This document shows, piece by piece, positions 385 to 64,000 of a DNA stretch of 64,000 bases (the first letter of the stretch is position 1; every line of letters starts with the position of its first letter). The notes under the pieces were generated by a model. That model had not been told where the DNA came from. It ran no database searches and was given only the letters and a program-made list of their open reading frames with translations. The DNA lies in assembly GCA_009746045.1 (NCBI GenBank), contig RPFO01000253.1:1332888-1396887 (forward strand). The letters are read 5' to 3'. The position numbers and the translations under genes were made by a program. Origin of the DNA: Mesostigma viride (lineage: Eukaryota > Streptophyta > Mesostigmatophyceae > Mesostigmatales > Mesostigmataceae).

Positions 385-9241
<8,857 letters not shown>

Positions 9242-13637: not shown

Positions 13638-13639
13638 AG

Positions 13640-33415: not shown

Positions 33416-34473
33416 TCCTGCCAGTAATCCATCTGGTGTATAATAATGAGACCCCCCTGCATGAGGAGTTGTCATGAGTGGCCTCCTACTGTATTGAGTA
33501 CAGCATGGTTGACCACAATGCTCTGTCTGCATATGACCCATGACTGTCAGCCAGGCTATTACCTTCTTAATCCTTAGCTACAATGGTTAAAATCGACCTA
33601 ATGGCCCTTTCAATGGTATACCTTGCCTCTCATGATCTTCCAGCCCTGCCAGGTCAATAGCCTCACACCCTGGCTCATTGGCAACGCAAGTACTACTGCT
33701 GATCAAGAAGCAGTGCCTCCACAGGGTAGTACCTGGCTTCAGCAATTAATCAAGAGAGCCCTGAGCAACTGTGATTTGTCCATACCATGCAGGTTTAACA
33801 ATTATATTGTGGTATATAGTAGCCTGGCCCATGCGAAATATGATTGCCCTTTTATATGAACGTCATCACCAACCACTCTGCCCTTGCACTTAGGTGGAGT
33901 AGCTACATGCCACTTAGGCGGTTTGGGATCATTGAACTGACAATTAATGCTGACAGCTAGTGGGATCTGACCACCTGGCATGCACCTCAGAGTGCTGCCC
34001 CCCCTAGTTTAGCTGCTACCATGCACCTCTGCACTGACTTCATGCCCATAAAGGAAGTGCAGCTGTATATAACGCGAGCTCATCAATACTGATATGAGGT
34101 GATGCTGTGGTGGATGCCCGGGAAACCTTGGGAACCACACATATGAATGTGGGTTTAGTGACATAGTAGTAGTCTTCTTTGACCAACATCAACACCTTGC
34201 CAGTCCTGCTGACTGACCTGCCAGAGGGGCATGCAGATGGAGGGTTTAAAGAGGACACACCATGACAGTCATCAAAGGAAAACTCACTCTAGTAGGGAGA
34301 GCGCCTGCAGTTGGCTGGGTCGCCGTGATGCGGCCCCGAAAGCACTTGTGGCAGAGCACTGCATCCAGGTGTCCCAGCTTTCTCCTCGTTATTGCGGCAG
34401 TCCTCCTTGCGTTGCCACGCCGTACCGCACAGTGTGTGCACCGCAGCTGCTGTCGCTCCTTCTTCTTCAAGAG

Positions 34474-34970
<497 letters not shown>

Positions 34971-34977
34971 AACTTGT

Positions 34978-35332
34978 TGCCCTTGCCCTTGCCCCTGCCC
35001 TTGCATGCCCTTGCCCTTGCCCTTGCCCTTGCTCTTGCCCTTGCCCTTGCCCTTGCCCTTGCCCTTGCCCTTGCCCTTGCCCTTGCCCTTGCCCTTGCCC
35101 TTGCCCTTGCCCTTGCCCTTGCCCTTGCCCTTGCCCTTGCCCTTGCCCTTGCCCTTGCCCTTGCCCTTGCCCTTGCCCTTGCCCTTGCCCTTGCCCTTGC
35201 CCTTGCCCTTGCCCTTGCCCTTGCCCTTGCCCTTGCCCTTGCCCTTGCCCTTGCCCTTGCCCTTGCCCTTGCCCTTGCCCTTGCCCTTCACCTTGCCCTT
35301 CACCTTGCCCTTCACCTTGCCCTTCCCCTGAT
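34978..35332. repeat. GCCCTT hexanucleotide repeat
   Basis: More than 50 near-perfect units beginning 8 bp after the GTT tract; the last units vary to CACCTTGCCCTT. Leu-Pro, Leu-Ala or Gly-Lys frames are artefacts. Confidence 0.98.
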
Positions 35333-35705
35333 CCTTATATAAATTACTGCCCCAGCAGCGACTTAACATCATGGCAATGGTGGGAGGCCTCTAATCTTAT
35401 ACTCCCTAGCCTGCCCCTTCTCCTCCTCCTCCCCCTCCACCCTGACCCTCTTCTTGACATTGGGGTCCCCGTTGCTGAGGGGGGCCAGGGCCAGCTTGAT
35501 GTGGCACCTTCATATTCTCCCAACCATGATGCCTAGCCGATCCTGTGGAGAGCATAGATAGGTGTTACGATCAAGTCTCAGTTTCTCCAAGAAGGAATGC
35601 AGCCAGAATTCGGGATCTATAAACTGCTGGACATCGCTCATGGCGAGCCTTAATAGCCAATTCCCACCACTACTTGGTCTCGGCTACGTAGTCATGGGTG
35701 ACCAC

Positions 35706-38652: not shown

Positions 38653-39680
38653 CGCTGCAGCTGGTAGGCCACATTAGCCCGTGGCCTACATAGTCCATGG
38701 CCCGGGCACCTCGACGTTGTAGATGTCTCTCTGACTGAGAGTAGTAGCTGGCCAGCATCGATATGCGCAAGTTACATCGACATTCGCGACTTATATCGAC
38801 GTCAAAGCTATATTGATCAACTGGTGCAAGCTAGTCACGCTAAGGAACGATCACAGTTGGTTCCTTAGCCTAAATGCCATTACAACAGCAGAGGGCTGGG
38901 CAGATGAGTATCTTATCCCCGGCTCTAGTGACGCTATGGTTGGCATGATGCAGACGATATTTGTAACTTTCGTGTAATTATTTTTCTGAAAAGATTAGCA
39001 TAGTACTCCGTGGCACGCCCATGCGCATGACACGCAAGTACTTACTTAATTAATTAGGCTATATTTTCTTGATTAATCAATGAATTAACACAAACTCTTA
39101 TTAGATTCAAATTAAACTACGCAATGAAGAAAACACGTCATGTCCTTAGATTGAGCCTTTAATCTTACACCTTTTGCAACCAGCCCCAGTGCTTGTAAAA
39201 TGTTTTCTCTGTGGGAACCAATCCTGCAATAATTAATACCACAGTTTGACACTTTGAGGACACGTCATTTGTCCCACATCCTCGTGCTACAAATTTGCAC
39301 GCGTAGTGCCTTCCTGGGTGCGGGAAAGGATTGATGAAGATTGGTTCTGTAACTGCCATCTACTATAGGACATATTATAAAGCGACAGGCACAGCAGTTG
39401 ACCACTGACTTGTTTTTACCATCAAGGTAATCACCTCATTGTCGGACGGTGGGCCTTATGAACTAGATAGCAGTAGTCCTTGAGAACCAAAGTACAGTAT
39501 CAGACTTAGTCCAAATATTTATAGTTTGGCTTCACTGGCCGGCTTCGTAAGAAGTATGTACCACGGTCGCGGTCGCCACCACTGCTGTCGCTGTCACTGC
39601 CGTCGTTCCCATCAGACCCTGTTCAGATAAAAAGCAACCGTGCAGTCAAGACAAGTCCCCGTGACTGGCAGTGAGTACAT
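38653..39680. other. No gene seen
   Basis: A-T-rich spacer; no repeat or coding signal beyond short chance frames. Confidence 0.4.
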
Positions 39681-39687
39681 TAACCAA

Positions 39688-40088
39688 ACCCTCCCTCCCT
39701 CCCCCCCCCCCATCCCTCCCTCCCTCCCTCCCCATCCCTCCCTCCCTCCCTCCCTCCCTCCCTCCCTCCCTCCTCCCTCCCTCCCTCCCTCCTCCCTCCC
39801 TCCCTCCCTCCCTCCCTCCTCCCTCCCTCCCTCCCCCTCCCTCCCTCCCTCCCCCATCCCTCCCTCCCTCCCTCCCTCCCCCATCCCTCCCTCCCTCCCT
39901 CCCTCCCCATCCTCCCTCCCTCCCCCATCCCTCCCTCCCTCCTCCCTCCCTCCCTCCCTCCCTCCCTCCCTCCCTCCCTCCCTCCCCCCTCCCTCCCTCC
40001 CTCCTCCCTCCCTCCCTCCCTCCCTCCCTCCTCCCTCCCTCCCTCCTCCCTCCCTCCCTCCCTCCCTCCCTCCCTCCCTCCCTCCCTC
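39688..40088. repeat. CCCT microsatellite (400 bp)
   Basis: Pure pyrimidine on the plus strand, mostly CCCT/CCTC units with CCCCAT interruptions. Long open frames on both strands are artefacts. Confidence 0.97.
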
Positions 40089-40094
40089 ATGTGT

Positions 40095-40450
40095 ACTAGA
40101 AGGGGGCGGCCATCTACGTCGGCCAGAAGCCCTGGCAAGCGACCCCTGCATTTTGCCCCAGGCACCACAGCTTAGGGGCATTCAAATTATCCAGTAGTCT
40201 GGCAGAATAGTACATAAAGCCAGTACATAAGGACTAGCGAAGGCGTAGTAAGCTATGGCTGACCTACCTCCAGCTCCGGCAGACCGCGGCGGGGAAGCCG
40301 TTGTACCTATAAGGGGGCGGGCGGCCATCTACGTCAGCCACAAGACCTGGCTTGCACACGTACACACAAGACCTGGCAAGCGACCCCCGCTGCCCCAGCA
40401 CCTCCAGGCACCCCTGCTTAGGGGAATATACCAGCAGTAGTGTAGAATAG
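40095..40450. repeat. Two diverged direct copies around GGCGGCCATCTACGTC
   Basis: Copies at about 40105-40200 and 40315-40452 share GGCCATCTACGTC, CCTGGCAAGCGACCCC and a CAG-AGTAGT end. A third, inverted match lies near 41140-41165. Confidence 0.7.
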
Positions 40451-42310: not shown

Positions 42311-42839
42311 TATAGTAAGACATAAACAATATTGACAGAAGACTAACAGACTGCTAATGTCACGCACCATGAGTACGCTGTATTACTAAATTACATTTTC
42401 AGGGCTGATGAATTTACTGCTGGCTTATACACACAGTTCATTGTAGCCACCCGACTTGACCCGAGGCCATTATAGCTTCATAATATAACAATTGTGATTC
42501 TATCTTGGTGATTGAAGTGAATGGGACAAACTGCCTGTTGTGTTTATGGCTGCCTACGGCAGCCAGCTAGCACAATTTGCAGTATTTAGAGCTACTTGAG
42601 GAATTGTGCCAATTAGGGAACGGATGCTTAGGAAAGGTTGTGTCAGAGAAAGGGAAGATACAGTAGCGATAGAATATCATATCGTCCAAGTACAGGTTGC
42701 ACATGATGGAAATACTATAAATCCAACGACAACACTATAAATCCAACGACAACAACAGTCTTTAGACTTTATTCCTCTGTCTAAGCCAGTGTAGTAGCCG
42801 CTGGGTAGTAGCATAACAACACGACCAAACGGGACTTAC

Positions 42840-42909
42840 CTCGCCCTGGCCTTCCAAGCTTTCCCCCCGACTTCCCATGTGATCTTCCATGCTTGGCAGT
42901 TGCCTCGGC
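42840..42909 (-). CDS. Candidate small minus-strand exon
   Basis: On the minus strand, acceptor GCGTTTCAG and donor GTAAGT flank 70 bases that are open in more than one frame (e.g. QPRQLPSMEDHMGSRGES). The splice sites are good but the gene is unknown. Confidence 0.3.
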
Positions 42910-43045
42910 TGCTGAAACGCACATGGCCGCAAGATACAGACAAGGCACACGCCGGTGAGTACCAGGTACAGGACATGAGTAGTCTATTTCCCCTACTCAT
43001 TATTAATGAGAACCCAATTTCAAAGGTGGCTTTCAAACTACCAAC

Positions 43046-44160
43046 CTCCCTCCCTCCCCTCCCTCCCCTCCTCCCTCCCTCCCTCCCCTCCCCTCCCTCC
43101 CTCCCTCCCCCATCCCTGCCTCCCTCCCCCATCCCTCCCTCCTCCCTCCCTCCCTCCCTCCCTCCCTCCCTCCCTCTCTCCCTCCCTCCCTCCCTCCCTC
43201 CCTCCCTCCCTCCCTCCCTCCCTCCCTCCCTCCCTCCCTCCTCCCTCCCCCCCACATCTCTCCCTCCCTCCCCCCCACATCTCTCCCTCCCTCCCTCCCT
43301 CCCTCCCTCCCTCCCTCCCTCCCTCCCTCCCTCCCTCCCCCATCCCTGCCTCCCTCCCCCATCCCTCCCTCCCCCCCTCCCTCCCTCCTCCCTCTCTCCC
43401 TCCTCCCTCCCTCCCTCCCTCCCTCCTCCCTCCCTCCCTCCCTCCCTCCCTCCCTCCCCCCACATCTCTCCCTCCCTCCCCCCCACATCTCTCCCTCCCT
43501 CCCTCCCTCCCTCCCTCCCTCCCTCCCTCCCTCCCTCCCTCCCTCCCTCCCTCCCTCCCTCCCTCCCTCCCCCATCCCTCCCTCCCTCCTCTCCCTCCCT
43601 CCCTCCCTCCCTCCCTCCCTCCCTCCCTCCCTCCCTCCTCCCTCCCTGCCTCCCTCCTTCCATCCCTCCCTCCCTCCCTCCCTCCTCCCTCCCTCCCTCC
43701 CTCCCTCCCTCCCTCCCTGCCTCCCTCCTTCCATCCCTCCCTCCTCCCTCCCTCTCCCTCCCTCCCTCCCTCCCTCCCTCCCTCCCTCCCTCCCTCCCTC
43801 CCTCCCTCCCTCCCCCCACATCTCTCCCTCCCTCCCCCCACATCTCTCCCTCCCTCCCTCCCTCCCTCCCTCCCCCTCCCTCCCTCCCTCCCTCCCTCCC
43901 TGCCTCCCTCCCCCACATCTCTCCCTCCCTCCCTCCCTCCCTCCCTCCCTCCCTCCCTCCCTCCCTCCCTCCCTCCCTCCCTCCCTCCCTCCCTCCCTCC
44001 CTCCCTCCCTCCCTCCCCCCCTCCCCCCCATCCCTCCCTCCCTCCCTCCCCATCCCTCCCTCCCTCCCTCTCCCTCCCTCCCTCCCTCCCTCCCTCCCTC
44101 CCTCCCTCCCTCCCTCCCTCCCTCCCTCCCTCCCTCCCTCCCTCCCTCCCTCCCTCCCTC
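43046..44160. repeat. CCCT microsatellite (1.1 kb)
   Basis: Almost pure pyrimidine on the plus strand with CCCT units and recurring CACATCTCT and CCCATC breaks that appear as larger duplicated blocks. Frames of 300-430 codons on both strands are artefacts. Confidence 0.97.
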
Positions 44161-45489
44161 AAATGTAAGGAGGGCTCGTTATTAACCAGTAATAGTTGCG
44201 CTATCTATCATCATTACTATTATCTAAACCGCCACGCCACAAAAAGTCAAACTCATGTAACTATAACGTACCAACTAAGTATTATTCAATATTAGCACTT
44301 ATTAGATTTTGTTCAGGGAAATCCTCCCACTTCATCTCCAGAACTCATGCACACGGCTTTCAGACCACGAGAACCACACTCTTGAAACTAGAAGAGTAAT
44401 CACACTTTTCATATGGTGGTCTAGAATGCGTGCAAGGGGCCTCATGATGGAGAGAAAAAAGACACGAGATCCTAAACATGACCAGCATCATATGTAAAGA
44501 TACAAACATATTAGTCCAAGCCCGGGAGGACAACGGTCATACCGTTGGTTGGAAATGGCAAGGCATGCTGTGAGCAAAAAGGAAAGTGAAAACATTAAAG
44601 GCTCTTCTTACCCCCATACGTACCCAAACAGCAAACTACATGCTGGGTCCGTGATGATTAATTTTAGGTAATGCATTTCGCGTACGACGTCGGCCATGCT
44701 AAATTGCGTCGCCACGACTAAGAAACAAAAAAAGTGGACTGGTTTCGTTAGCAGCAATTAAGGACTAAATTTAAGGGGGGGCAACAATTGCACAAAAGTT
44801 CTTGCGCCACGAATACAGCTCATTATAAGCAATTGTTTGCCTCACCATGAAGGGCGAGGTTGCCCAACATGGAGGATAACTCGACTGCACGAAAAAAGGG
44901 ATGCACACGGACACACGCATGGACGGAAGCAGGTATATAGTTAGGCGTGTTCATGACACTGCATATATGCCTTCATAACATTAACAACGTACCGTGTTGC
45001 ACATACATGTACTTGTGGTGGGCACTCTTGTACGCCTACATATCTAGCTCAGCCCTGTCCACACACTTCCTTGCTTGCCTCCCTGCTTGCTTGCTGAGTG
45101 CGTGTCCTCATGCCTGCCTGGATGCCTACTTTTCAGTTTCTTCACCCCCTCTTGACATTCACCGTCCAAGGCAGAATTGATCTAGGTGTAACAATCTGCA
45201 TTCTCAAAGTATACCCTGAATGAAGGTACAGAAGTTCTTGGCATGACATCAACGTAACCCCATCAACATAACCCGGTTCACGAGGAACTATCACAACCAC
45301 CCCCCTACGATTTATTACTCCACATTTTCAGGCCAATCAAAGTTACAACAAGCAAACCCAAGTGTTGTGCCTCAACCTCAAGAAGTCTATGCTGCCAAAC
45401 TTGACTTCCAAGCCTCCCCCGCGTCAGCCACTCCAAGGGGAGGAATGCTTATCAATATTTTATAGCTACCTTGGCTCGTCGTACTCACC
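44161..45489. other. No gene assigned
   Basis: No convincing coding segments. It may be intron or spacer for minus-strand exons on either side. Confidence 0.4.
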
Positions 45490-49442: not shown

Positions 49443-49488
49443 CGGACAATGTTGGCAAGGCTGGGCCTATTAGGCGCCAGCGGTTCAC

Positions 49489-52400
49489 GTGGGTGCGCAA
49501 TGCTCAGGAAAACTGAAGGCCCCAGGGCAGGACAGCGCTATGGAGCATAGGAGGCTCCTGGCAGTAGACGATGTAGGCAGTTTTATGGCCGATGCTGCGG
49601 ATGTTAAGGCAATATCAAACTTGATCAATACAGATCCAATTTTCAAGTATGCCTGTGCGTCTCGGTTTCACATCTTCTTTGGCCATGGAACAAACGCTTA
49701 CAAGTTTGCTAGGGCTTTTGGTGGGGCGCCAATGCTGGAAGCATGTCGTGAGTGTTACGAAAATTGTCCACAATGTCAATCGTCGGGCCCCAAGCCTCCT
49801 CGCCACCATGTAAAGCATCCACCTGCGAGAAAGGGGAAATCGTAGGTGATGTGCTGTTCTGGGCACACATGCCATACTTTATTGCAATAGATAGATATGC
49901 TCACAACGTAGCTGTAGTTCCTTTGCGTCATATGGAAGCCGCCGACCTGGCAGAAGCCATTGATGTCTCTTCGTCCTTTTTCTCACCACTCGAGTCAATA
50001 CAGATGGACAGGCAGTTCGCGTGTCTAGAGGGCCAGCCTGGATTTGAATGCCTCAAGACAGTTGGGCGTGAGGACCACACTGGTCAGGGTATAGTGGAGC
50101 GTGCCGTGCAAGAATTCAAGCAAGCTGCACGGAGACAAGGTGATGCATCCCTTTCAGCATACGCAGCCCGCCTCATGTGGGCGTTGCGGATTTGTGCATG
50201 CCTTAATCGGCGTGTGTTGTTGTCCATTCCTTCTCGCAATGTGGTGATAACAGCTGAGGGATTGCAGCACGGCCACTACCCACCAGAGATAGAAGAGGAG
50301 TGGGCACGCCATTTGCAGGGTAGATTTGCCAACCTGGTACGAAGGGATACACGTAGGCCGGTTACCGCCTATAGTGTAGGAGACCTGGTTGGGTGCATAA
50401 AGAGGGCCCCTTTGGAAAGAGGGGACAGTGGAATGGTCCAGCCACGGTAGTGTCCGTGGATGGGAGTGTGCGCAAGGCCGTTGTTTCCTTGCAGGACAAG
50501 CAATACCACATCCCGTGGAGCAAGCTCAAGCACTATCAACCGAACACAAGTGCGTGGGAGCGCCTTCTGCACTACTACGAGGACGCGGACAACTTCTTGC
50601 GGCCTCCACCAGGTGACGTGATTGCCCCTCTTTTACCCATGCCTGCCTCTGACCCTATGCAAATGTCTGCCGAAGCTCGGGAGGTAGAGGACGATGAGCA
50701 TGTTGAGGAGGACGGTGATCTGGTGGCACTTGCTGCAGATGTGCAGAGCTTAGCTCGCGAGCCCCCTGCTGACCTGCGCGAGGGTAGTAGGGAGGGCATT
50801 ACCCCTGCCGTTAGCCAGGGTCCGGCTGCCGTTAGTCAGCCTCGCCGGGGTGGTGGGTTGCTCAGCAAGATTGTTCTAGGGCTGCGCCGGGACAATAACA
50901 TGGGGTTAGGCTCCCTTCGCCGCCCACCACAGACTGCAGGCGTACCCCCTCAGCTGGGCCCGAGCACTGCAGTCATCTCTTCCTTGTTAACCTCTAGGGC
51001 GCTGAATTGTGGGCTCCTCATTGATACCCAGGCCCAGGTCTCTATTATCGGGGCCAACTGTGTAGACTTTCCTTTGCTGCCCTCTCATTGGACTCAGGTC
51101 ACTGATTTTGCTAGGTCAGGGTCCTACAAGGTCCTGGGGGAATTTCCCTTAACCATCCTCGGCGCAGACACGCCCATGTGTGTGGTAGAGGGGTATGATG
51201 GGCCCGCCTTATTAGGACAGCCGTTCTTGACGCTACCCGGGGTTACAGTGAGCAGCACACAGCTGTCCCGAGCGGGGTTTGGCTGCATGCGATTGAATAA
51301 TTTTTCCCTCGATGTCGCTGCTCGGGGTCTCTCATTGCCTATGGTGGCTGCCATGAAAGGGGTAGAGTACAAGGATTCTGAATTGCCTCCTGCCCGCGAT
51401 CTTCTCACCCCTAAAGCCCTCACCCCTGACAGCTTGGGGATTAGCTTCCACGATGTTGCCACTGAAAGCCCCATGTCCTTCCATGATGTTGCCAGGCACG
51501 TCTCAACCGAGGAAGGGCTAGACAATACCCAAGGGGCTATGCTGGCTGCAGGGGAACGATGGTTAGGACTGGGTTGTGTGGAGCCAGTGGACCTAGTCCC
51601 AAGGGATGGCCGGTTGCTTCGTTTCAAATGGACCTTCCAGATGAAGCCGGTTCCCGGCACTGACAGGAAAGTAGAGTTTGCTAGACCTGTGGTGCTAGAA
51701 TTTTCTGGATCTTCTGACCTGCCCTCCTCAGCCCTGACTGCCCCGGGCTTAAATAAAGACACTTGGCGATTGTTAGTGTGCTTTCATCTCGGGCGCCTCA
51801 ACAAAGGCTTGCCGCATGGCTCCGCGGTGCTGGATTTTTCTAAGGCCTTCCTTAACGGGGATTCAGATGAGACGGCTAAATTGTGGGAGGGCACCACACC
51901 GCTGTATGTTAGGACACCCAAGATGTGGGAACCTATTGTGGGCAAGAAGTTCATGAGGTTGGTGAAGGCTGTGGATGGGACCGTGGCCGGGCCGCGGGCG
52001 TGGCGCAAGAGTTTAGAGCGCCTTCTACTTAACCGCGCACGCATGATGTACAGCGACCTGGACCCCTCCTTGTTTGTTGGTGTCTGGAAGGGGGAGCTCG
52101 TGTTTGTTTTCGTGCATGCCGATGACTGTGACTGCCTGGGGCCACGGGAGTGGATTGTGTGGTTCCATTCGCTCGTGCACTCAGTGTACCCTGTGGGCAA
52201 GCTCGTCTTTAGGGAGCCGGGCAAGATCGTGCCCTTCATGGGCATGGACACTATTCTCGATCACGATGAGCAAGGGCAGTGGGTCATGTTGCTGCATCCT
52301 AAGGGTAGCTATGTCCCCGACCTGGTCAAGGAGGTCATGGCCCGCACTGGGCCTATCCTTCCCTCTGAGTGTGGTGCGCTGCGTGGCAAACTCAATTGGC

Positions 52401-53056
52401 TTGCGTGTACCACGAGCCCTGACTTGGCTGTCCTTAGTCGGTTGACAGACGATGTTCTCTGCTTGTTGGCCCGCCCGGTTGTAGCTGAGTATGTGCAGGC
52501 CTCACCGGGGTTGGTCCTGCAGGGTGTTGACTGGGACAAGCCCATCGAGCTAGGGGCTTATTGTGACAGTTCTTTGGATGCGCGGGTGCTCACCAAGATG
52601 CGTGGTAGGTGTGCGGCTGTTAGCTATATCTCAAACGCTGACCAATCTGCGCCATCCTCCATCTTTGCGTGGTTCTCACGTCTACACCGCCGTGTGTATG
52701 TGGGGTCGGACACCGCCGAGGCGCGTGCGTATTGCGAGGCTGCAAGTGAGCTCGCGTATTTCCACGCGCTACTCTGCTGGATCCTCAAGCTGGGCGGTCT
52801 CACCACACGCATCGATCGCGTCATGCGCACCGACAGCCAAGCGCTGGTGGACTTCATTGAGAACCCCTACGCTCGCACGAGAGACCTTGACTTCCTCCGG
52901 GTGAAGGAATTTTCTGATGCGCTCCATACCGAGCACGTGGCAGGCGACCAGAATTGCTCGGATGCTCTTACCAAGCTCTATAGCTCCGCCAAGGCACAGT
53001 ATACTCTTCTTAGGCACCAAATGAACAATATGTCGCTGGGTCAGCCACGGCACTAG
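49489..53056 (+). pseudogene. Copia-like pol of copy A (two frameshifts)
   Basis: Same protein as at 58015-61584. The first deletion breaks the frame just after the IN zinc domain; the second breaks it in the GD-x-V-W module after the IN core. From 50393 the frame is open for 887 codons covering protease, RT and RNase H. The breaks are in short homopolymers, so either recent decay or sequence error is possible. Confidence 0.9.
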
Positions 53057-53273
53057 TTGAGATGTCGTGGAGTGTGAATGGCCCCTTGACTCGGGTTTTA
53101 CCTTGGTAGGTTTTCCCGGTAGCGATGCTATGGTGTAATTTGTTTGGCTGGGGATTACCCTCCAAAACCATGTGGGGCCTAAGGTGCGTTCATGATGGCA
53201 AGGCCTGCGCGGCCGTAGTTCTTACAGATTTGAGTACGCAGTCCTATTGCCACATGAAAAAAGAAAGGGCTGG

Positions 53274-53778
53274 AGTTGCAATCTGTTGCTTGACCGAAAT
53301 GCGTGTATAAACTGGTGCATGCATAATGGAATGTAAATCTGTGAAACAATACTCACAATTGCTGCACACAGCTTGTGTACATGACCATGGTGGCAGTATA
53401 GCCAAGCTGATGCATTATAACTAGTGGTCGCGCTGACTGCATGTTGAGCACTGACTGTCGGTCAGGCTGTTGAAGTCGTGCCAAGGATTGATGAGATAAA
53501 ACACCCCTTCAGCGGGCAGACGAATACGGCAATATTCCCTGCTAATGGATATTTGTAAATGGTTCTAGAAGCGTCTAGAAGCATTGTGCAACGCTGGCGT
53601 AACGCTAGTTCAGTGTGCCTCTTGGAAATCGCTAATGCACATGAAATGTGATTGGTGCAATGACGATAAGGCCTATCGCAATCTTGGGGTTGCACACATG
53701 ACTTGTAACCATATAAATTGATAATAAACCCAGGCACCTAGGGCCGCATTCTTGCAAGCATCATTCTCAATCTCAACT
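53274..53778 (+). mobile_element. 3' LTR of copy A (505 bp)
   Basis: Starts AGTTG after AAAGAAAGGGCTGG and ends CAACT. Same length as the 3' LTR of copy B (61802-62306). Confidence 0.92.
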
Positions 53779-54331
53779 CCACTAGCTGCCCCTTGATGGG
53801 CTTGTAGTCCAGGTATTCTTGCTTCAGGTGGGACCCATCTATGGTCCTCTTGTCACTCAGGAACACCCTGAGTCGCGTCATAAACGCCGCCCAGGTGTCC
53901 CCCGCCGCGTGTCGCTCCCGAACAAACTTGAACAGCCGCCTCGCCGACTGCCTTATGTAGGCACTAGACGCCAGGATGCGAAGCTTGTCACCGGTGTATA
54001 TCTCCGTGTACAAGTTCATGTCCTCTAACATCCTCTCAGCATCTCGGGGCTGCCAATTGTCCTTGATGGACTGAAACTGGCCTAGCACCGCGTACCCCTC
54101 AGCCACGGTCGGTCGCTTAGGCGCCGCTTGATCTGCGGCTGGCGCGTTCTGACCGCCCTGCGATCCTTGGCTCTGATTATCTGGCACCTCAGCCTGGTCT
54201 CCTAGCGCCTGGCCGTCCCCGCGTCCATCGCGTCCACCGCGTCCATCGCGTCCATCTCGTCCATCCATCCCAGCGCCGCGCCGCGCGAAGCCCATAAAGC
54301 CCGCTTGTTGGTTGATAGCTCCATCATCCAT
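53779..54331 (-). pseudogene. Gag-like ORF cut by copy A
   Basis: Starts MDDGAINQQAGFMGFARRG with Gly-Arg-Asp repeats, then a helical part (SAYIRQSARRLFKFVRERHA, TWAAFMTRLRVFL) resembling the W-x-x-F-x-x-x-L core of retrotransposon gag. The last native residues are KPIKGQLVE; the stop used is inside the copia LTR. A capsid role is inferred. Confidence 0.5.
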
Positions 54332-54433
54332 GATGGCCTTTGTTCAGATCTGCTACAGCCAGCCAAGTGGCCAAGCAGCAATTAAAGCAATATAAGCTAC
54401 TGAACAAGAAAAGAAAGTGCCAAGTGTTACCAC

Positions 54434-55354
54434 TCAGGCAAGACCACCACGGTTGGCCCCAGGCGCGTCCTGGTTCTCCTTGTCGCTGTCGTCGTCGCTG
54501 TCGCTCACCACAATCAGCTCTGGCACCCTGCTCCCCGCTGCGCCGTCGTCGACCCGCTGTCGGCCCGCGATGACTGAATCGTCACCGTTGGTATAGTAGA
54601 CAGGTGACAACCCGTCGTGGGCACCCCGAGGATTGTATCTTGGCACCTCGTGGTCGCCAAGTGTCTCGTCGCCTAGCCCAGCGACACCCCCTGCTCCCAC
54701 CTCAAGGTCACTATCGTACCCAAGAGGTGCAAACTCCTCCCAACGCGTCACACGAACGCGAAGGGGCTGGGGCAGTTCCTGAAAAGGAACCCTTGCTCGC
54801 TCCGGAAACCTGCCGACTCTTGCCGCGCGCTGTCTTCCGGTGATGCCTTCCGCTGTCGCCCCGACCTCTGCAAGCCGCCTGTAGTGCTCCGCTCCGCGTC
54901 GTTCACGTCGAACTGGTCCCGCTGCAACACCCTCGTCGCCGATGACGCCTGCGAAAGTACGTTGTAAACCCGCACCCGCTGCTGTCGGTACAAACTCGTG
55001 TCGCCCTGCGCCAGCTGCCTCCGCAACCTCGCCTCGCCTTGCCGCCAACTCCGCACGCACTCGCTCAGCTACTGCTGTAATCACCGTCTGGATGCCGACC
55101 AAACCGTGAAGCTCCTGCTCGAGGTCGTCGATGCTCCGGTGCTCCGGAATGACGATGGTTTGTACGTGCCGCAGAATTCGCTCCCAATCTTCGACCTGGT
55201 CGTCGACGAATTGCACGAAGCTGCGATTTACAGGCGGACGATCTGCAAGCAATAAAGATAGATCTCGAACGACACGACGCAATTCAGGAGAAATCGAACC
55301 CCCAGCAGACTGCCGAAATCGGAAATCCTGCTGCCGTTGTTCCTCCTGCACCAT
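54434..55354 (-). CDS. Hypothetical 306-aa ORF of the minus-strand LTR element
   Basis: Uninterrupted frame starting MVQEEQRQQDFRFRQ, with helical segments (residues about 20-110, FVQFVDDQVEDWERILRHV), an Arg/Ala-rich middle, and an acidic end with ELIVVSDSDDDSDKENQ. The hydrophobic core LIVV followed by Ser/Asp residues is a typical SUMO-interacting motif. It is the first ORF after the LTR, where a gag or structural protein is expected. Family not recognised. Confidence 0.5.
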   Translation of the reverse strand: MVQEEQRQQDFRFRQSAGGSISPELRRVVRDLSLLLADRPPVNRSFVQFVDDQVEDWERILRHVQTIVIPEHRSIDDLEQELHGLVGIQTVITAVAERVRAELAARRGEVAEAAGAGRHEFVPTAAGAGLQRTFAGVIGDEGVAAGPVRRERRGAEHYRRLAEVGATAEGITGRQRAARVGRFPERARVPFQELPQPLRVRVTRWEEFAPLGYDSDLEVGAGGVAGLGDETLGDHEVPRYNPRGAHDGLSPVYYTNGDDSVIAGRQRVDDGAAGSRVPELIVVSDSDDDSDKENQDAPGANRGGLA

Positions 55355-56509: not shown

Positions 56510-56561
56510 CTACCTACGGACACCACCGGAGGCAGCACCTATCCTGCTAGACACCTCAAGA
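56510..56561 (-). pseudogene. C-terminal remnant of the LINE ORF1 beyond copy B
   Basis: Continues the minus-strand frame from 62307 across the CAAGA duplication with VSSRIGAASGGVRR and a stop at 56510. Confidence 0.55.
56557..56561 (+). repeat. Left target duplication of copy B (CAAGA)
   Basis: CAAGA immediately before the 5' LTR; identical to 62307-62311. Confidence 0.85.
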
Positions 56562-57062
56562 AGTTGCAATCTGTTGCTTGACCGAAATGCGTGTATAAAC
56601 TGGTGCATGCATAATGGAATGTAAATCTGTGAAACAATACTCACAATTGCTGCACACAGCTTGTGTACATGACCATGGTGGCAGTATAGCCAAGCTGATG
56701 CATTATAACTAGTGGTCGCGCTGACTGTTGAGCACTGACTGTCGGTCAGGCTGTTGAAGTCGTGCCAAGGATTGATGAGATAAAACACCCCTTCAGCGGG
56801 CAGACGAATACGGCAATATTCCCTGCTAATGGATATTTGTAAATGGTTCTAGAAGCGTCTAGAAGCATTGTGCAACGCTGGCGTAACGCTAGTTCAGTGT
56901 GCCTCTTGGAAATCGCTAATGCACATGAAATGTGATTGGTGCAATGACGATAAGGCCTATCGCAATCTTGGGGTTGCACACATGACTTGTAACCATATAA
57001 ATTGATAATAAACCCAGGCACCTAGTGCCGCATTCTTGCAAGCATCATTCTCAATCTCAACT
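56562..57062 (+). mobile_element. 5' LTR of copy B (501 bp)
   Basis: Starts AGTTG and ends CAACT. It lacks 4 bp (about 56725) found in the 3' LTRs of both copies. TATAAA at 56996-57001 and AATAAA at 57007-57012 lie near the 3' end, so transcription should start about 25-30 bp further on and R-U5 would be only about 40 bp. Confidence 0.92.
56996..57001 (+). promoter_or_regulatory. TATA box of the copia-like element
   Basis: TATAAA in an A-T-rich patch 61 bp before the LTR end; the only good TATA motif near the LTR/gag junction. Confidence 0.5.
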
Positions 57063-57085
57063 CGTACTCAAAGCTGCTATTTACA
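57063..57085 (+). other. 23-nt leader between LTR and gag
   Basis: Starts CGTACTCAAAGCTGC. There is no TGG-type primer binding site; the priming tRNA, or an internal tRNA fragment, is unknown. Confidence 0.6.
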
Positions 57086-58042
57086 ATGGCTCGCGGTTCC
57101 CGTTCCGACACGGACGCCATTCAGTTGACTGGCGATGGTGCCGATGCTTACAAGGAGCTGCGACAGCACGAACTGGTGGTTCGCATGCTGCCAGAGCCGT
57201 TGGCCGACAAGGCTACGGACAAGGAAAACCGTGACTTTGTCTGGGCAATCAAGGCCTGGGAGGAGAAAGTCCGCACGGTAGTGAAGACTCCCGCGCAGAT
57301 TTTTCGGATCTTGCGGGGGGCTCCACTGGCCAGCAAAGGGCCGCAGGCGGTGCGGGACCTGATTCGGATCGCCCAGGAGAAGGCATGGGACTGGAATCAG
57401 TTCCTTGAGCGGCTCACTGAGCTTCTCGCGCCGACAGGGCTGGTGAAGTCCATCAAGGACGTCATGCAGATTCTGACGTTCGAAGTGTCCGGTGACACTG
57501 CCAAGGCCACGCTGGCCTTCGAGCGGATGCTCGAAGAAACCAATCTAAAATTTGCTGATGATTTTTCGGTGGTCCTGTTCTTGGGCAAGGCCCTTGGCAG
57601 CGGTGCTATGTCAGAAAGCACCGTGCAGAGTCTGGCGTCCGTCCTGACCAAGGAGAAGCTGGCGAGCAAGGCTGCTGCTTTCGCCTGCATCCGCGAGATC
57701 ATGGCGCTCGGTGGCGCTGCTCAGGAGCTGGCCGGCAAGGGTGCCGTGAAGCCGACGCCAGCAGTCAATGCCGATGGCCCTGCCATCAGGGCCGTTTTTG
57801 GCGCCGGTGACGGGCGCCTGAAGTGTCCTCGCTGCCAGGGGACTGGTCACACCCGCGAGACCTGCAAGGCCAACAAGGCTTTCCCGTTGGGGACGAACCT
57901 GTGTGGCAAGTGCCATAAGCCAGGGCACAAGGCCCGGTTTTGCAAGTCGCGGACTGCTGCCAACCAGGCGGACAATGTTGGCAAGGCTGGGCCTATTAGG
58001 CGCCAGCGGTTCACGTGGGTGCGCAATGCTCAGGAAAACTGA
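57086..58042 (+). CDS. gag: Gag of copy B, two CCHC knuckles
   Basis: 318 residues from ATG 57086 (first ATG after the LTR). Residues 1-240 are mostly helical and resemble a capsid region (WAIKAWEEKVRTVVKTPAQI, FLERLTELLAPTGLV). Two zinc knuckles follow: C247-C250-H255-C260 and C273-C276-H281-C286, each C-x2-C-x4-H-x4-C. The end is basic (IRRQRFTWVRNAQEN). It would coat and package the RNA in cytoplasmic particles. No protease motif is present. The end overlaps pol by 43 nt. Confidence 0.9.
   Translation: MARGSRSDTDAIQLTGDGADAYKELRQHELVVRMLPEPLADKATDKENRDFVWAIKAWEEKVRTVVKTPAQIFRILRGAPLASKGPQAVRDLIRIAQEKAWDWNQFLERLTELLAPTGLVKSIKDVMQILTFEVSGDTAKATLAFERMLEETNLKFADDFSVVLFLGKALGSGAMSESTVQSLASVLTKEKLASKAAAFACIREIMALGGAAQELAGKGAVKPTPAVNADGPAIRAVFGAGDGRLKCPRCQGTGHTRETCKANKAFPLGTNLCGKCHKPGHKARFCKSRTAANQADNVGKAGPIRRQRFTWVRNAQEN
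58000..58042 (+). promoter_or_regulatory. gag/pol overlap, probable -1 frameshift zone
   Basis: The pol frame opens after a TAG at 57997-57999 and gag stops at 58040-58042. Pol has no ATG before residue 18, so -1 frameshifting is likely. GGAAAAC (58033-58039) directly before the gag stop resembles a slippery X-XXY-YYZ site but its first triplet is not uniform. Confidence 0.5.
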
Positions 58043-61000
58043 AGGCCCCAGGGCAGGACAGCGCTATGGAGCATAGGAGGCTCCTGGCAGTAGACGATGT
58101 AGGCAGTTTTATGGCCGATGCTGCGGATGTTAAGGCAATATCAAACTTGATCAATACAGATCCAATTTTCAAGTATGCCTGTGCGTCTCGGTTTCACATC
58201 TTCTTTGGCCATGGAACAAACGCTTACAAGTTTGCTAGGGCTTTTGGTGGGGCGCCAATGCTGGAAGCATGTCGTGAGTGTTACGAAAATTGTCCACAAT
58301 GTCAATCGTCGGGCCCCAAGCCTCCTCGCCACCATGTAAAGCATCCACCTGCGAGAAAGGGGGAAATCGTAGGTGATGTGCTGTTCTGGGCACACATGCC
58401 ATACTTTATTGCAATAGATAGATATGCTCACAACGTAGCTGTAGTTCCTTTGCGTCATATGGAAGCCGCCGACCTGGCAGAAGCCATTGATGTCTCTTCG
58501 TCCTTTTTCTCACCACTCGAGTCAATACAGATGGACAGGCAGTTCGCGTGTCTAGAGGGCCAGCCTGGATTTGAATGCCTCAAGACAGTTGGGCGTGAGG
58601 ACCACACTGGTCAGGGTATAGTGGAGCGTGCCGTGCAAGAATTCAAGCAAGCTGCACGGAGACAAGGTGATGCATCCCTTTCAGCATACGCAGCCCGCCT
58701 CATGTGGGCGTTGCGGATTTGTGCATGCCTTAATCGGCGTGTGTTGTTGTCCATTCCTTCTCGCAATGTGGTGATAACAGCTGAGGGATTGCAGCACGGC
58801 CACTACCCACCAGAGATAGAAGAGGAGTGGGCACGCCATTTGCAGGGTAGATTTGCCAACCTGGTACGAAGGGATACACGTAGGCCGGTTACCGCCTATA
58901 GTGTAGGAGACCTGGTTTGGGTGCATAAAGAGGGCCCCTTTGGAAAGAGGGGACAGTGGAATGGTCCAGCCACGGTAGTGTCCGTGGATGGGAGTGTGCG
59001 CAAGGCCGTTGTTTCCTTGCAGGACAAGCAATACCACATCCCGTGGAGCAAGCTCAAGCACTATCAACCGAACACAAGTGCGTGGGAGCGCCTTCTGCAC
59101 TACTACGAGGACGCGGACAACTTCTTGCGGCCTCCACCAGGTGACGTGATTGCCCCTCTTTTACCCATGCCTGCCTCTGACCCTATGCAAATGTCTGCCG
59201 AAGCTCGGGAGGTAGAGGACGATGAGCATGTTGAGGAGGACGGTGATCTGGTGGCACTTGCTGCAGATGTGCAGAGCTTAGCTCGCGAGCCCCCTGCTGA
59301 CCTGCGCGAGGGTAGTAGGGAGGGCATTACCCCTGCCGTTAGCCAGGGTCCGGCTGCCGTTAGTCAGCCTCGCCGGGGTGGTGGGTTGCTCAGCAAGATT
59401 GTTCTAGGGCTGCGCCGGGACAATAACATGGGGTTAGGCTCCCTTCGCCGCCCACCACAGACTGCAGGCGTACCCCCTCAGCTGGGCCCGAGCACTGCAG
59501 TCATCTCTTCCTTGTTAACCTCTAGGGCGCTGAATTGTGGGCTCCTCATTGATACCCAGGCCCAGGTCTCTATTATCGGGGCCAACTGTGTAGACTTTCC
59601 TTTGCTGCCCTCTCATTGGACTCAGGTCACTGATTTTGCTAGGTCAGGGTCCTACAAGGTCCTGGGGGAATTTCCCTTAACCATACTCGGCGCAGACACG
59701 CCCATGTGTGTGGTAGAGGGGTATGATGGGCCCGCCTTATTAGGACAGCCGTTCTTGACGCTACCCGGGGTTACAGTGAGCAGCACACAGCTGTCCCGAG
59801 CGGGGTTTGGCTGCATGCGATTGAATAATTTTTCCCTCGATGTCGCTGCTCGGGGTCTCTCATTGCCTATGGTGGCTGCCATGAAAGGGGTAGAGTACAA
59901 GGATTCTGAATTGCCTCCTGCCCGCGATCTTCTCACCCCTAAAGCCCTCACCCCTGACAGCTTGGGGATTAGCTTCCACGATGTTGCCACTGAAAGCCCC
60001 ATGTCCTTCCATGATGTTGCCAGGCACGTCTCAACCGAGGAAGGGCTAGACAATACCCAAGGGGCTATGCTGGCTGCAGGGGAACGATGGTTAGGACTGG
60101 GTTGTGTGGAGCCAGTGGACCTAGTCCCAAGGGATGGCCGGTTGCTTCGTTTCAAATGGACCTTCCAGATGAAGCCGGTTCCCGGCACTGACAGGAAAGT
60201 AGAGTTTGCTAGACCTGTGGTGCTAGAATTTTCTGGATCTTCTGACCTGCCCTCCTCAGCCCTGACTGCCCCGGGCTTAAATAAAGACACTTGGCGATTG
60301 TTAGTGTGCTTTCATCTCGGGCGCCTCAACAAAGGCTTGCCGCATGGCTCCGCGGTGCTGGATTTTTCTAAGGCCTTCCTTAACGGGGATTCAGATGAGA
60401 CGGCTAAATTGTGGGAGGGCACCACACCGCTGTATGTTAGGACACCCAAGATGTGGGAACCTATTGTGGGCAAGAAGTTCATGAGGTTGGTGAAGGCTGT
60501 GGATGGGACCGTGGCCGGGCCGCGGGCGTGGCGCAAGAGTTTAGAGCGCCTTCTACTTAACCGCGCACGCATGATGTACAGCGACCTGGACCCCTCCTTG
60601 TTTGTTGGTGTCTGGAAGGGGGAGCTCGTGTTTGTTTTCGTGCATGCCGATGACTGTGACTGCCTGGGGCCACGGGAGTGGATTGTGTGGTTCCATTCGC
60701 TCGTGCACTCAGTGTACCCTGTGGGCAAGCTCGTCTTTAGGGAGCCGGGCAAGATCGTGCCCTTCATGGGCATGGACACTATTCTCGATCACGATGAGCA
60801 AGGGCAGTGGGTCATGTTGCTGCATCCTAAGGGTAGCTATGTCCCCGACCTGGTCAAGGAGGTCATGGCCCGCACTGGGCCTATCCTTCCCTCTGAGTGT
60901 GGTGCGCTGCGTGGCAAACTCAATTGGCTTGCGTGTACCACGAGCCCTGACTTGGCTGTCCTTAGTCGGTTGACAGACGATGTTCTCTGCTTGTTGGCCC

Positions 61001-61584
61001 GCCCGGTTGTAGCTGAGTATGTGCAGGCCTCACCGGGGTTGGTCCTGCAGGGTGTTGACTGGGACAAGCCCATCGAGCTAGGGGCTTATTGTGACAGTTC
61101 TTTGGATGCGCGGGTGCTCACCAAGATGCGTGGTAGGTGTGCGGCTGTTAGCTATATCTCAAACGCTGACCAATCTGCGCCATCCTCCATCTTTGCGTGG
61201 TTCTCACGTCTACACCGCCGTGTGTATGTGGGGTCGGACACCGCCGAGGCGCGTGCGTATTGCGAGGCTGCAAGTGAGCTCGCGTATTTCCACGCGCTAC
61301 TCTGCTGGATCCTCAAGCTGGGCGGTCTCACCACACGCATCGATCGCGTCATGCGCACCGACAGCCAAGCGCTGGTGGACTTCATTGAGAACCCCTACGC
61401 TCGCACGAGAGACCTTGACTTCCTCCGGGTGAAGGAATTTTCTGATGCGCTCCATACCGAGCACGTGGCAGGCGACCAGAATTGCTCGGATGCTCTTACC
61501 AAGCTCTATAGCTCCGCCAAGGCACAGTATACTCTTCTTAGGCACCAAATGAACAATATGTCGCTGGGTCAGCCACGGCACTAG
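58015..61584 (+). CDS. pol: Pol polyprotein of copy B: IN - PR - RT - RNase H
   Basis: 1189 residues counted from 58015. Integrase: zinc site H61-H66-C93-C96; core D121, D174 and E204 (only 29 residues between the last two); then a GDLVWVHKEGPF...WNGPATV module at 298-325. An acidic linker (about 395-430) follows. Aspartic protease: LLIDTQAQVSII with D513, and ALLGQPFL at 574-581. RT: D783 in LDFSKAFLNGD, GPRAW at 835-839, and HADD at 877-880 as the catalytic box. RNase H: D1027, E1078, D1116, D1159 (SDALTKL). The order of RT and RNase H motifs is Ty1/copia-like; the protease position is not. The frame is intact, so it may be active. Confidence 0.92.
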   Translation: MGAQCSGKLKAPGQDSAMEHRRLLAVDDVGSFMADAADVKAISNLINTDPIFKYACASRFHIFFGHGTNAYKFARAFGGAPMLEACRECYENCPQCQSSGPKPPRHHVKHPPARKGEIVGDVLFWAHMPYFIAIDRYAHNVAVVPLRHMEAADLAEAIDVSSSFFSPLESIQMDRQFACLEGQPGFECLKTVGREDHTGQGIVERAVQEFKQAARRQGDASLSAYAARLMWALRICACLNRRVLLSIPSRNVVITAEGLQHGHYPPEIEEEWARHLQGRFANLVRRDTRRPVTAYSVGDLVWVHKEGPFGKRGQWNGPATVVSVDGSVRKAVVSLQDKQYHIPWSKLKHYQPNTSAWERLLHYYEDADNFLRPPPGDVIAPLLPMPASDPMQMSAEAREVEDDEHVEEDGDLVALAADVQSLAREPPADLREGSREGITPAVSQGPAAVSQPRRGGGLLSKIVLGLRRDNNMGLGSLRRPPQTAGVPPQLGPSTAVISSLLTSRALNCGLLIDTQAQVSIIGANCVDFPLLPSHWTQVTDFARSGSYKVLGEFPLTILGADTPMCVVEGYDGPALLGQPFLTLPGVTVSSTQLSRAGFGCMRLNNFSLDVAARGLSLPMVAAMKGVEYKDSELPPARDLLTPKALTPDSLGISFHDVATESPMSFHDVARHVSTEEGLDNTQGAMLAAGERWLGLGCVEPVDLVPRDGRLLRFKWTFQMKPVPGTDRKVEFARPVVLEFSGSSDLPSSALTAPGLNKDTWRLLVCFHLGRLNKGLPHGSAVLDFSKAFLNGDSDETAKLWEGTTPLYVRTPKMWEPIVGKKFMRLVKAVDGTVAGPRAWRKSLERLLLNRARMMYSDLDPSLFVGVWKGELVFVFVHADDCDCLGPREWIVWFHSLVHSVYPVGKLVFREPGKIVPFMGMDTILDHDEQGQWVMLLHPKGSYVPDLVKEVMARTGPILPSECGALRGKLNWLACTTSPDLAVLSRLTDDVLCLLARPVVAEYVQASPGLVLQGVDWDKPIELGAYCDSSLDARVLTKMRGRCAAVSYISNADQSAPSSIFAWFSRLHRRVYVGSDTAEARAYCEAASELAYFHALLCWILKLGGLTTRIDRVMRTDSQALVDFIENPYARTRDLDFLRVKEFSDALHTEHVAGDQNCSDALTKLYSSAKAQYTLLRHQMNNMSLGQPRH

Positions 61585-61801
61585 TTGAGATGTCGTGGAG
61601 TGTGAATGGCCCCTTGACTCGGGTTTTACCTTGGTAGGTTTTCCCGGTAGCGATGCTATGGTGTAATTTGTTTGGCTGGGGATTACCCTCCAAAACCATG
61701 TGGGGCCTAAGGTGCGTTCATGATGGCAAGGCCTGCGCGGCCGTAGTTCTTACAGATTTGAGTACGCAGTCCTATTGCCACATGAAAAAAGAAAGGGCTG
61801 G
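61585..61801 (+). other. 3' non-coding and polypurine tract
   Basis: 217 bp from the pol stop to the 3' LTR, ending in AAAAAAGAAAGGGCTGG, the likely plus-strand primer tract. Confidence 0.7.
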
Positions 61802-62306
61802 AGTTGCAATCTGTTGCTTGACCGAAATGCGTGTATAAACTGGTGCATGCATAATGGAATGTAAATCTGTGAAACAATACTCACAATTGCTGCACACAGC
61901 TTGTGTACATGACCATGGTGGCAGTATAGCCAAGCTGATGCATTATAACTAGTGGTCGCGCTGACTGCATGTTGAGCACTGACTGTCGGTCAGGCTGTTG
62001 AAGTCGTGCCAAGGATTGATGAGATAAAACACCCCTTCAGCGGGCAGACGAATACGGCAATATTCCCTGCTAATGGATATTTGTAAATGGTTCTAGAAGC
62101 GTCTAGAAGCATTGTGCAACGCTGGCGTAACGCTAGTTCAGTGTGCCTCTTGGAAATCGCTAATGCACATGAAATGTGATTGGTGCAATGACGATAAGGC
62201 CTATCGCAATCTTGGGGTTGCACACATGACTTGTAACCATATAAATTGATAATAAACCCAGGCACCTAGTGCCGCATTCTTGCAAGCATCATTCTCAATC
62301 TCAACT
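61802..62306 (+). mobile_element. 3' LTR of copy B (505 bp)
   Basis: AGTTG...CAACT. AATAAA at 62251-62256 is a probable poly(A) signal. Same as the copy A LTR except at one base that I saw. Confidence 0.93.
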
Positions 62307-62311
62307 CAAGA
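62307..62311 (+). repeat. Right target duplication of copy B (CAAGA)
   Basis: Pairs with 56557-56561. Confidence 0.85.
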
Positions 62312-63393
62312 GACTCCGCTCCGGGGGTGTTAATCTGAACACCTTTAAGCGGTTTCCCATCAAAGAATGCTGCGGAGCCATCCTGAAGCAGGCGCAACTT
62401 AATGCGCTTACCCGGGGTCTCGAATTGCTTGGTCTCCTGGACGATGGGGCTGTTCCACACCGCGCTTCTCGCCTTCAGTTGAGCCGGCGTGTAGTCCTCG
62501 TCGAGGCTGAAGTCACCGCGCTGGAGCAGACGACGTGCTCCCAGCACGAGGCGTTTGTCGTGCATGGAGGCCATGGTGACGACGACCATGCAGGCCCAGA
62601 GGGCCTGGCAGCCGAATGGCACGTTCAATGGCAACACGGTTCTGGAGCTGCAGCTTCCCCAGGAACGCTGGGCCGCGCAGTTCCTCGGCAAGTGAGTGTG
62701 CTGTCTCATGTGCTGCCGCGCCTTTCTGGAAGCCTTTGATTACCATATTGCGTTGGCGTTGCTGCACTGCATTCTGGGTGACCGCAGCGGTAGCTGCAGA
62801 CTTGGCCGCCTGTTGAACCATGGTGGTCAACTGCTTGCCGGTGACATCGGCAAACGTGGTAGTTTTGGCAGGGGCTGCCAATGATGGCTTTCTTCAGCTC
62901 CATCAATTGTGCTGTCGCAGCTGCAGATCGACGCCTCCGTCAGGACCTTAATGTCGCCCTGCACGGTCGTAAAAGACTGTGCGAGGTGCTGCAGTTGCAC
63001 GGTAACATCGGTCGCGGGTGCTGGCCTGGCGATGGCTGTCGCCGGCAGCTCGACAAGGTCAGGGCAGCACGAAATAAGACAGGCAAGCCGACGCAGACAC
63101 GGATCCCAACCAGACCACTCATCCGAAGGAGCGTCCATAACCTGGCCGGTGTAAGGGTGGCGAATCGGGGCGTCGTTGTTGTCACTGAGCTTCAGCACGC
63201 TGGTTACGGCGGCGTCGTTGTAGTTGAGTAAGGTAGCGATGTCTTTCAGGCTCAAACGCTGGCCTGGCACGTAGAATGATGAGGGAATGGAGTCCGGCAA
63301 GGAGGTTTCAGTATCTATCGGAGTTGCTTCCGAAGTCTTGGGCCGCTTGTGAGCGGCGTTCACAACGGTCCGTGCCCCGCCAAAAACGACCAT
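62312..63393 (-). pseudogene. LINE ORF1-like protein, frameshifted and split by copy B
   Basis: Starts ATG 63393 (MVVFGGARTVVNAAHKRP) and runs through at least three frames: a Pro/Ser N-part with LSLKDIATLLNYNDAAV, a coiled-coil-like part (AQSFTTVQGDIKVLTEA, LMELKKAIIG), then MVIKGFQKGAAAHETAHSLA and VVVTMASMHDKRLVLGARRL with SLDEDYTPAQLKARSAVW. The last parts align with the ORF1 at 17711-18161 (RRM plus C-terminal domain). Copy B inserted after GVQINTPGAESLE; the former C-terminus continues at 56561-56510. Confidence 0.6.
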
Positions 63394-64000
63394 CTTACTC
63401 CGTCACCAAATTGGCGCGAGATCCCGAAAATCTGGTGGGCGGGAAGGTGACGACGAGGCAAAAAGTCACGCAGCACCCATGGCGGCCGTGAAAATCCTAG
63501 CGACCGTCCTGAGAACACATTACGGACAGCGAATTCATTTTGAGCCTTCATAACTCATCTACTTCACGTAGATATTTTTTTATCCTAAAGAAATCGGCCC
63601 ATTTTTTCAGGAAAACAGAAAAAGGGCAGGCATTTTTGCGAGGTCGGGTCAGGTCCGCTGCATTTTGCAGTGGACCCCCAAAAAGTCACACCGGAAACTT
63701 ATCAAAAACGGCGACAGTGCAGTTCGAGGTAAGCCGCTCCCTCGATTCTATGACTAATTCAAAAATTTTTGACCGAAAAACTTTTTGTTAAAACGACTGC
63801 CATGCATTGTAAATGCTGCGCTACCGCAAATTATGTTGTTGCTGGGAGGTGCTTGCGGGAGCGGTAATGGTGCACTAACGTAAAAATATGCCACTGTTTG
63901 GTTTCTTCGAATTTGGTCGTTCCACTTTCTCAGGCCGTTTAAATGGCTTCCAGAGCACATCCCTCGCTACTCTCGTGCCCAAGGTGCGATGAGCGCCTGC
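63394..64000. other. No gene seen
   Basis: Upstream (minus-strand sense) of the LINE ORF1; possibly its 5' UTR. Only short chance frames. Confidence 0.4.

Follow-up and report, generated by a model that had tools for sequence, protein, structure and literature searches.

An abundant LTR retrotransposon lineage of Mesostigma viride with an apparent integrase-protease-reverse transcriptase-RNase H order in pol

The window analyzed here, a stretch of 64,000 nucleotides from the Mesostigma viride genome, contains a complete LTR retrotransposon at 56562-62306. Its pol gene encodes an integrase (IN) ahead of a retropepsin-like domain (PR), followed by a copia-type reverse transcriptase (RT) and RNase H (RH). 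We consider it likely, with a probability of about 0.8, that this is a recently mobile member of a lineage whose pol reads IN-PR-RT-RH and which would go through a conventional LTR cycle in which the protease acts from a central position in pol. Comparison of the copies shows IN-PR-RT-RH to be a real and apparently new pol architecture with a putative protease. It also places the order before the split of the four families recognized here (F1, to which the complete element belongs, and F2 to F4), and in recently inserted elements.

Structure of the complete element

The F1 element (locus L001) is flanked by the target-site duplication CAAGA, at 56557-56561 and 62307-62311. Its 5' LTR (501 bp, 56562-57062), with AGTTG...CAACT termini, and its 3' LTR (505 bp, 61802-62306) differ only by a 4-base gap. 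Between them, also on the plus strand, lie gag (318 aa, 57086-58042), pol, and a putative polypurine tract (61784-61797) that ends 4 bases ahead of the 3' LTR. The nucleocapsid part of gag (residues 245-291, 57818-57958) contains two CCHC knuckles; these residues resembled retroviral nucleocapsids weakly (E 1.2 and above), and the knuckle region matched zf-CCHC_5 with an E-value of 0.28.

Pol, which lies in the -1 frame relative to gag and overlaps it, codes for 1189 aa at 58015-61584, the extent given in a preliminary description of this DNA; the reading frame is open from 58000. That description had placed an integrase HHCC site and D-D-E core before a retropepsin-like domain, with copia-type RT and RNase H behind it, and the residue positions bear this out. 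The HHCC site (H61, H66, C93, C96; 58195-58302) is followed by the catalytic core (D121, D174, E204; 58375-58626), both identical in F1 to F3, and by an SH3/Tudor-like C-terminal stretch (58897-59064) with a KRG-W motif near residue 310, kept in F1 to F4. The retropepsin-like domain, assigned by motif, profile and conservation, occupies 59527-59829, with D513-T-Q-A-Q-V-S at one end and L-L-G (residues 575-577, in LLGQPFL) at the other. RT (60082-60894) includes D783 and H-A-D-D at 877-880, and RNase H (61057-61524), from residue 1025 on, includes D1027, E1078 and D1116, whose roles we assume by analogy. F1 and F3 agree in the key residues of integrase and protease, as does F2 wherever it could be aligned; the exceptions are the residue after D513-T, which is Gln in F1 and F2 and Asn in F3 and F4, and the loop, which is either LLG or ILG.

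Other features of the window

A tandem array at 10540-13639 consists of about 62 copies of a 52-bp unit with a 26-bp half unit (TAACGTTAG...GGGGCACGGGCAC). Simple-sequence arrays, most of which produce long open frames on either strand, occur at 6641-7581, 9743-10040 (a GGGAT repeat), 34213-35390, 39615-40194 and 42798-44292. Four minus-strand ORFs of 157-306 aa flank the F1 copies (53741-55354 and 62269-63402) and had no Pfam match at E 0.1. A LINE-like reading was considered for two ORFs, 17703-18158 and 62269-62739, and dropped; neither matched anything in Pfam at the same E-value.

Occurrence of the order in the host genome

A search of the host genome (440 Mb in 2243 contigs) with F1 pol returned 44 rows. 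Nine of these, on nine contigs and including that of the window, were full-length, free of stops and at least 99.6% identical (tblastn); a tenth full-length row, L012, had four stops. The window has a second F1 copy at 49443-53779 (plus strand), 99.9% identical, with its 5' end missing, its pol frame interrupted and its 3' LTR at 53274-53778.

F2 comprises five loci (L022, L023, L028, L029 and L030); measured on L030, its identity to F1 is 74% for integrase, 79% for protease, 86% for RT and 80% for RNase H. A diverged element in the window belongs to F3, a family that shares 31% identity with F1 in RT and 34-37% in protease, depending on which of two alignments is used, and F3 and F4 together share 34-40% with F1 in the retropepsin-like domain. 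The genome search with F3 RT gave at least 150 matches, many of them within open frames 1196 or 1198 codons long, and the search with F3 integrase likewise gave at least 150. When the two lists were compared by hand for one contig (C1), each of the 12 listed integrase matches was followed, at a distance of exactly 571 bases and in the same orientation, by an RT match, and a thirteenth RT match had no listed integrase match. For F4, 148 matches to the RT of L018 were listed, many of them in frames of 1208 codons.

The preliminary description had read the same order in the diverged element of the window, at 19456-20656. This held for the family and not for the copy. The broken F3 copy (18614-20656, plus strand) consists of a zinc-knuckle ORF, a stop, and an HHCC stretch fused straight to protease and RT; because its integrase core is deleted, this copy alone could not show the order. 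An open F3 copy, L062, has the full arrangement of HHCC, D-D-E and KRG-W end, then protease. In F4, the end of an integrase directly precedes the protease at L063, 0.7 kb upstream of one RT match. The full order from D-D-E to protease was thus read in F1, F2 and F3, and that of F4 from the integrase end on.

It is vanishingly improbable that the order reflects a local rearrangement, an assembly error or a misread frame in one copy. Orders of this kind have been handled as errors: in the plant reference set of Neumann (2019; PMC6317226), elements with unexpected domain orders were, according to the portion of the paper available, dropped as likely mispredictions. Against an error in a single copy stand the nine stop-free full-length F1 matches on nine contigs, the five F2 loci and the listed matches of F3 and F4. 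We therefore rejected this explanation on the distribution of F1 to F4 copies across the genome. The claim that this is not a single rearrangement also stood, since the integrase lies directly ahead of the same domain in F2, F3 and F4 as well. Because families that are only about 30-40% identical have the order, with matches in long open frames, it can be regarded as a trait of a lineage, and the proposal of a distinct lineage is upheld.

Fragments in L009, L020 and L027 share 33-41% identity with F1, and 47-71% with L018 or among themselves (over 77-253 columns). Since they diverge from F1, from L018 and from one another, further families probably exist. No relatives outside the host genome appeared in scans of viral contigs and genome contigs, and the copia-type element L036 of the host, used as a query against the viral contigs, likewise found none. 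F1 copies adjoin or sit inside F3/F4-like fragments at L003, L006, L009, L018, L020 and L027, which suggests nested insertion among the families. The window also has other degraded remnants of RT and RNase H from this lineage, at 13678-13989, 14577-14970 and 25035-25371.

Identity of the protease domain

The preliminary description called the domain after the integrase a clear retropepsin. The motif agrees with this, but no database match reached a cut-off: in Pfam and NCBIfam scans of single sequences no protease match was above it, and the best was gag-asp_proteas in F3, with an E-value of 0.25. An HMM search of pol gave the expected RVT_2, below the cut-off, and neither an integrase in F1 and F2 nor a protease above the cut-off.

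The D[ST]G motif that marks retropepsins (clan AA) is replaced by DTQ in F1 and F2 and by DTN in F3 and F4, so that none of the four families has it. A motif scan found D[ST]G neither in gag nor in pol of F1, and in a protease context (a hydrophobic pair before, A/S/T after) it is absent from all six frames of the element. A site of two hydrophobic residues followed by D-[ST] occurs once in F1 pol. The combined protease-like pattern also occurs once, and it arose in 7 of 20,000 shuffles of pol. The scan found no protease motif in F1 gag, in line with the view that gag ends without a protease, and no additional one in F1 pol; a second protease domain in gag or early pol is what the preliminary description had named as refuting its reading. 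All four families keep the catalytic Asp and Thr, the Q-V-S that follows and the LLG/ILG loop, and the ILG-type loop lies at the distance from the active site that is seen in retropepsins of clan AA. The protease end is LLG or ILG in the four families, and not the LLS of copia.

Profile searches were run against 177,635 PDB sequences. With a protease profile of three families, seven sequences scored below E 10 and six of them were retropepsins: two, at E 0.063 and 0.075, entered as "protease, tethered dimer", which we take to be HIV-1, and four ASPRV1 (E 0.86-0.90), whose alignments placed the query D-T-Q on D-S-G. The F4 protease alone had 19 matches (best E 0.022), four to NFAT and 15 to retroviral proteases, among which eight bore the name HIV-1; three displayed alignments were free of gaps from the flap to the ILG loop. 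The four-family profile gave four matches, two of them proteases and both doubled chains, and for the F1 protease alone none of four matches was a retropepsin. The best E-values (0.063 for three families, 0.057 for four families, 0.022 for F4) all came from doubled chains, whose halves scored 7-9 bits each with domain E-values of 14-38; the best single-chain retropepsins were ASPRV1 (E 0.86, three-family profile) and 1odx (E 0.90, F4 alone).

These matches, together with motif, spacing and conservation, give good but not conclusive support for a retropepsin. That the stretch is no protease and its motif a coincidence is very unlikely in our view: the database scores are below threshold and the best of them come from doubled chains, but the motif pair is as rare among shuffles as given above, it is present in four families, and retropepsins make up the majority of the PDB lists of the three-family profile and of F4.

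Relationships of integrase, RT and RNase H

The description of the element as copia-like applied to RT and RNase H, but not to protease and integrase. The F1 RT piece matched RVT_2 with an E-value of 3.7e-5, at 20.8-23.9 bits against a curated Pfam cut-off of 31.6. No RVT_1 was listed for it with E-values up to 10, a range in which HMMER filters drop most matches above 0.1. The RT profile found one PDB entry, which was unrelated. A profile of RT and RNase H aligned with L036 over 409 columns (hhalign E 9e-9); L036 has rve, SH3_retrovirus and RVT_2 in copia order and is known here without its protease. The usual RT motif is YxDD, with Tyr first; F1, L018, L027 and L036 have His at the Tyr position, as HADD in F1, HGDD in L018 and L027, and HVDD in L036.

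The integrase of F1 to F3 matched no known family at a curated cut-off. In the family scans the core of F1 and F2 had no match, and that of F3 gave rve at E 0.086 and an IS481 transposase at E 0.0042, with Agenet at E 0.0097 for its end. The integrase profile matched nothing in PDB, and the match of this profile, built from three sequences, to the L036 integrase had an E-value of 0.26, which is no detectable match.

This difference raises the question of a chimera, in which a copia-type RT-RNase H would be joined to an integrase-protease block of other origin, of the gypsy or retroviral type, and which would not be a copia element with a moved integrase. It is suggested by the match of RT-RNase H to L036 where the integrase has none. 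The small integrase profile weakens the case, as does the H-x4-H spacing of the HHCC site, which we take to be copia-like. The protease ending speaks for a chimera: the state LLG/ILG is, in the available text of Llorens (2009; PMC2774666), the one predominant outside copia. We rate a chimeric origin at slightly below even, and it is compatible with the main reading of an IN-PR-RT-RH lineage.

Selection, insertion and LTR ends

The dN/dS ratios between F1 and F2 were 0.086 for IN, 0.080 for PR, 0.089 for the protease-RT linker, 0.073 for RT, 0.078 for RH, 0.168 for gag and 0.452 for the integrase-protease linker; they are approximate, given dS values of 0.6 to 2.1. The Nei-Gojobori method was applied to existing frames, with one F2 copy per region (L030 for pol and L022 for gag).

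These ratios are relevant to the proposal that the domain after the integrase is an inactive retropepsin fold (DTQ/DTN) with a structural role, the polyprotein being cut by a host protease or working uncut. The Gly of D[ST]G is indeed replaced in all four families. However, the catalytic Asp and Thr, Q-V-S and the loop are kept in the same families, the F1-F2 ratio of the protease equals those of the other enzymes, and F1 gag and pol have no other protease motif. We regard an inactive fold as unlikely, and favor a protease that acts from within pol.

Two full LTRs were present within the fetched flanks at 7 of 30 loci of the F1 search, and all seven had matching 5-bp flanks, so that both marks of an LTR retrotransposon, paired LTRs and a target-site duplication, were found at each. 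The LTR pairs differed by no substitution in L001, L003, L006 and L007, by one in L005 and L012, and by seven in L008. L003 and L006 have the same flank, TCCTG, and may represent one insertion. The LTRs of F1, and those of F2 where readable (L022, L023 and L029), end in AGTTG...CAACT and not in TG...CA. The lineage has inserted recently and is abundant in the host genome.

Gag-pol junction and proposed cycle

The end of F2 gag reads G GGA AAC TAG in the gag frame in all four copies examined (five F2 loci, with L023 left out), and G GGA AAC is the textbook -1 slippery heptamer. F1 gag ends in G GAA AAC TGA at all 17 distinct loci with an exact upstream 15-mer, including both copies in the window; the putative -1 frameshift site lies at 58033-58039 (plus strand), ahead of the gag stop. 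Downstream of it, no RNA structure beyond that of shuffled sequence was detected. Retroviruses have a slip-type heptamer at the gag-pol junction, which the junction of this lineage resembles. In the window's F3 copy, which is one broken copy, the knuckle frame ends in a single TGA, beyond which pol continues without a change of frame.

We propose that the LTRs would drive an RNA from which ribosomes make Gag, and that, where gag ends, a minority of ribosomes would shift into the -1 frame (on G GGA AAC in F2 and G GAA AAC in F1) and produce a Gag-IN-PR-RT-RH fusion. In F3, to judge from its one broken copy, pol may be reached by readthrough of the single in-frame stop. Fusions would pair in a putative particle, where the internal retropepsins could form a two-fold active site. 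The retropepsin, presumed active despite DTQ or DTN, would then cut at predicted sites on both sides of itself, releasing IN on the side of Gag and RT-RH on the opposite side. The latter would copy the RNA, and IN would insert the DNA, with its AGTTG...CAACT ends, and generate the 5-bp duplication. Of this cycle we observed the domain order, the LTR ends and the duplications, and found every domain to be conserved and under selection. The processing plan would be an altered one because of the domain order, if the putative protease is active.

Comparison with known systems

We lean, by a little, toward a separate deep lineage of LTR retroelements that combines a copia-like RT-RH with an integrase and a non-copia retropepsin working with D-T-Q/N, makes up a dominant share of the host genome and still moves, and was missed because pipelines discard such orders. 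The order of pol serves as a defining character of LTR retroelement superfamilies, and a successful IN-PR lineage would mean that processing is less constrained than has been supposed. If a lineage with such an order is successful, it would offer a natural test of protease activation in the middle of a fusion, and domain-order filters would be discarding real elements. The DTQ/DTN active site also raises a question of direct interest to the biochemistry of retropepsins.

The available text of Llorens (2009; PMC2774666) codes five states of the integrase, which may follow the protease, follow RNase H, be truncated, be lost or precede gag. It assigns the first of these to all known copia elements and to Gmr1, and a position between gag and protease is absent from its coding. 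It also gives LLS as the protease ending of copia, with rare exceptions, and ILG as predominant elsewhere. No description of an IN-PR-RT-RH order was found in the literature searched, including the accessible parts of PMC3587641 and PMC8226300; most subscription papers and Repbase fell outside this search, and one may exist there.

Ty1/copia (Pseudoviridae), together with L036, resembles F1 in its LTRs, its 5-bp target duplication, the sequence of RT and RNase H and an integrase before RT. It differs in having the protease before the integrase (gag-PR-IN-RT-RH), whereas that of the lineage comes after; the lineage also has LLG/ILG in place of LLS, separate gag and pol frames, and an integrase without detectable match to that of L036. 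Ty3/gypsy and the retroviruses, as far as the sources consulted cover them, have in common with F1 an ILG-type protease ending, but their integrase follows RNase H, unlike that of F1. The RVT_1-type RT of Ty3/gypsy is not what F1 has, as no RVT_1 was listed for its RT.

Petunia vein clearing virus (Caulimoviridae) is a caulimovirus not known to have LTR mobility. In the text available of PMC2774666, its integrase precedes its protease, in a frame directly upstream of gag, but it stands before gag, unlike that of F1. Gmr1, a group of gypsy elements with a copia-like order, is an established example of an integrase gene that has changed its position (PMC2774666, PMC3587641, in the parts available), but its integrase is still downstream of the protease (PMC2774666, likewise). 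TARE1, in the partial account consulted, is another family with LTR ends other than TG...CA. Troyka, in the portion of PMC12440569 available, is a precedent for a new and separate LTR lineage with unusual LTR ends, but it differs from F1 in its CG...CG ends, 3-bp duplications, animal hosts and position near gypsy.
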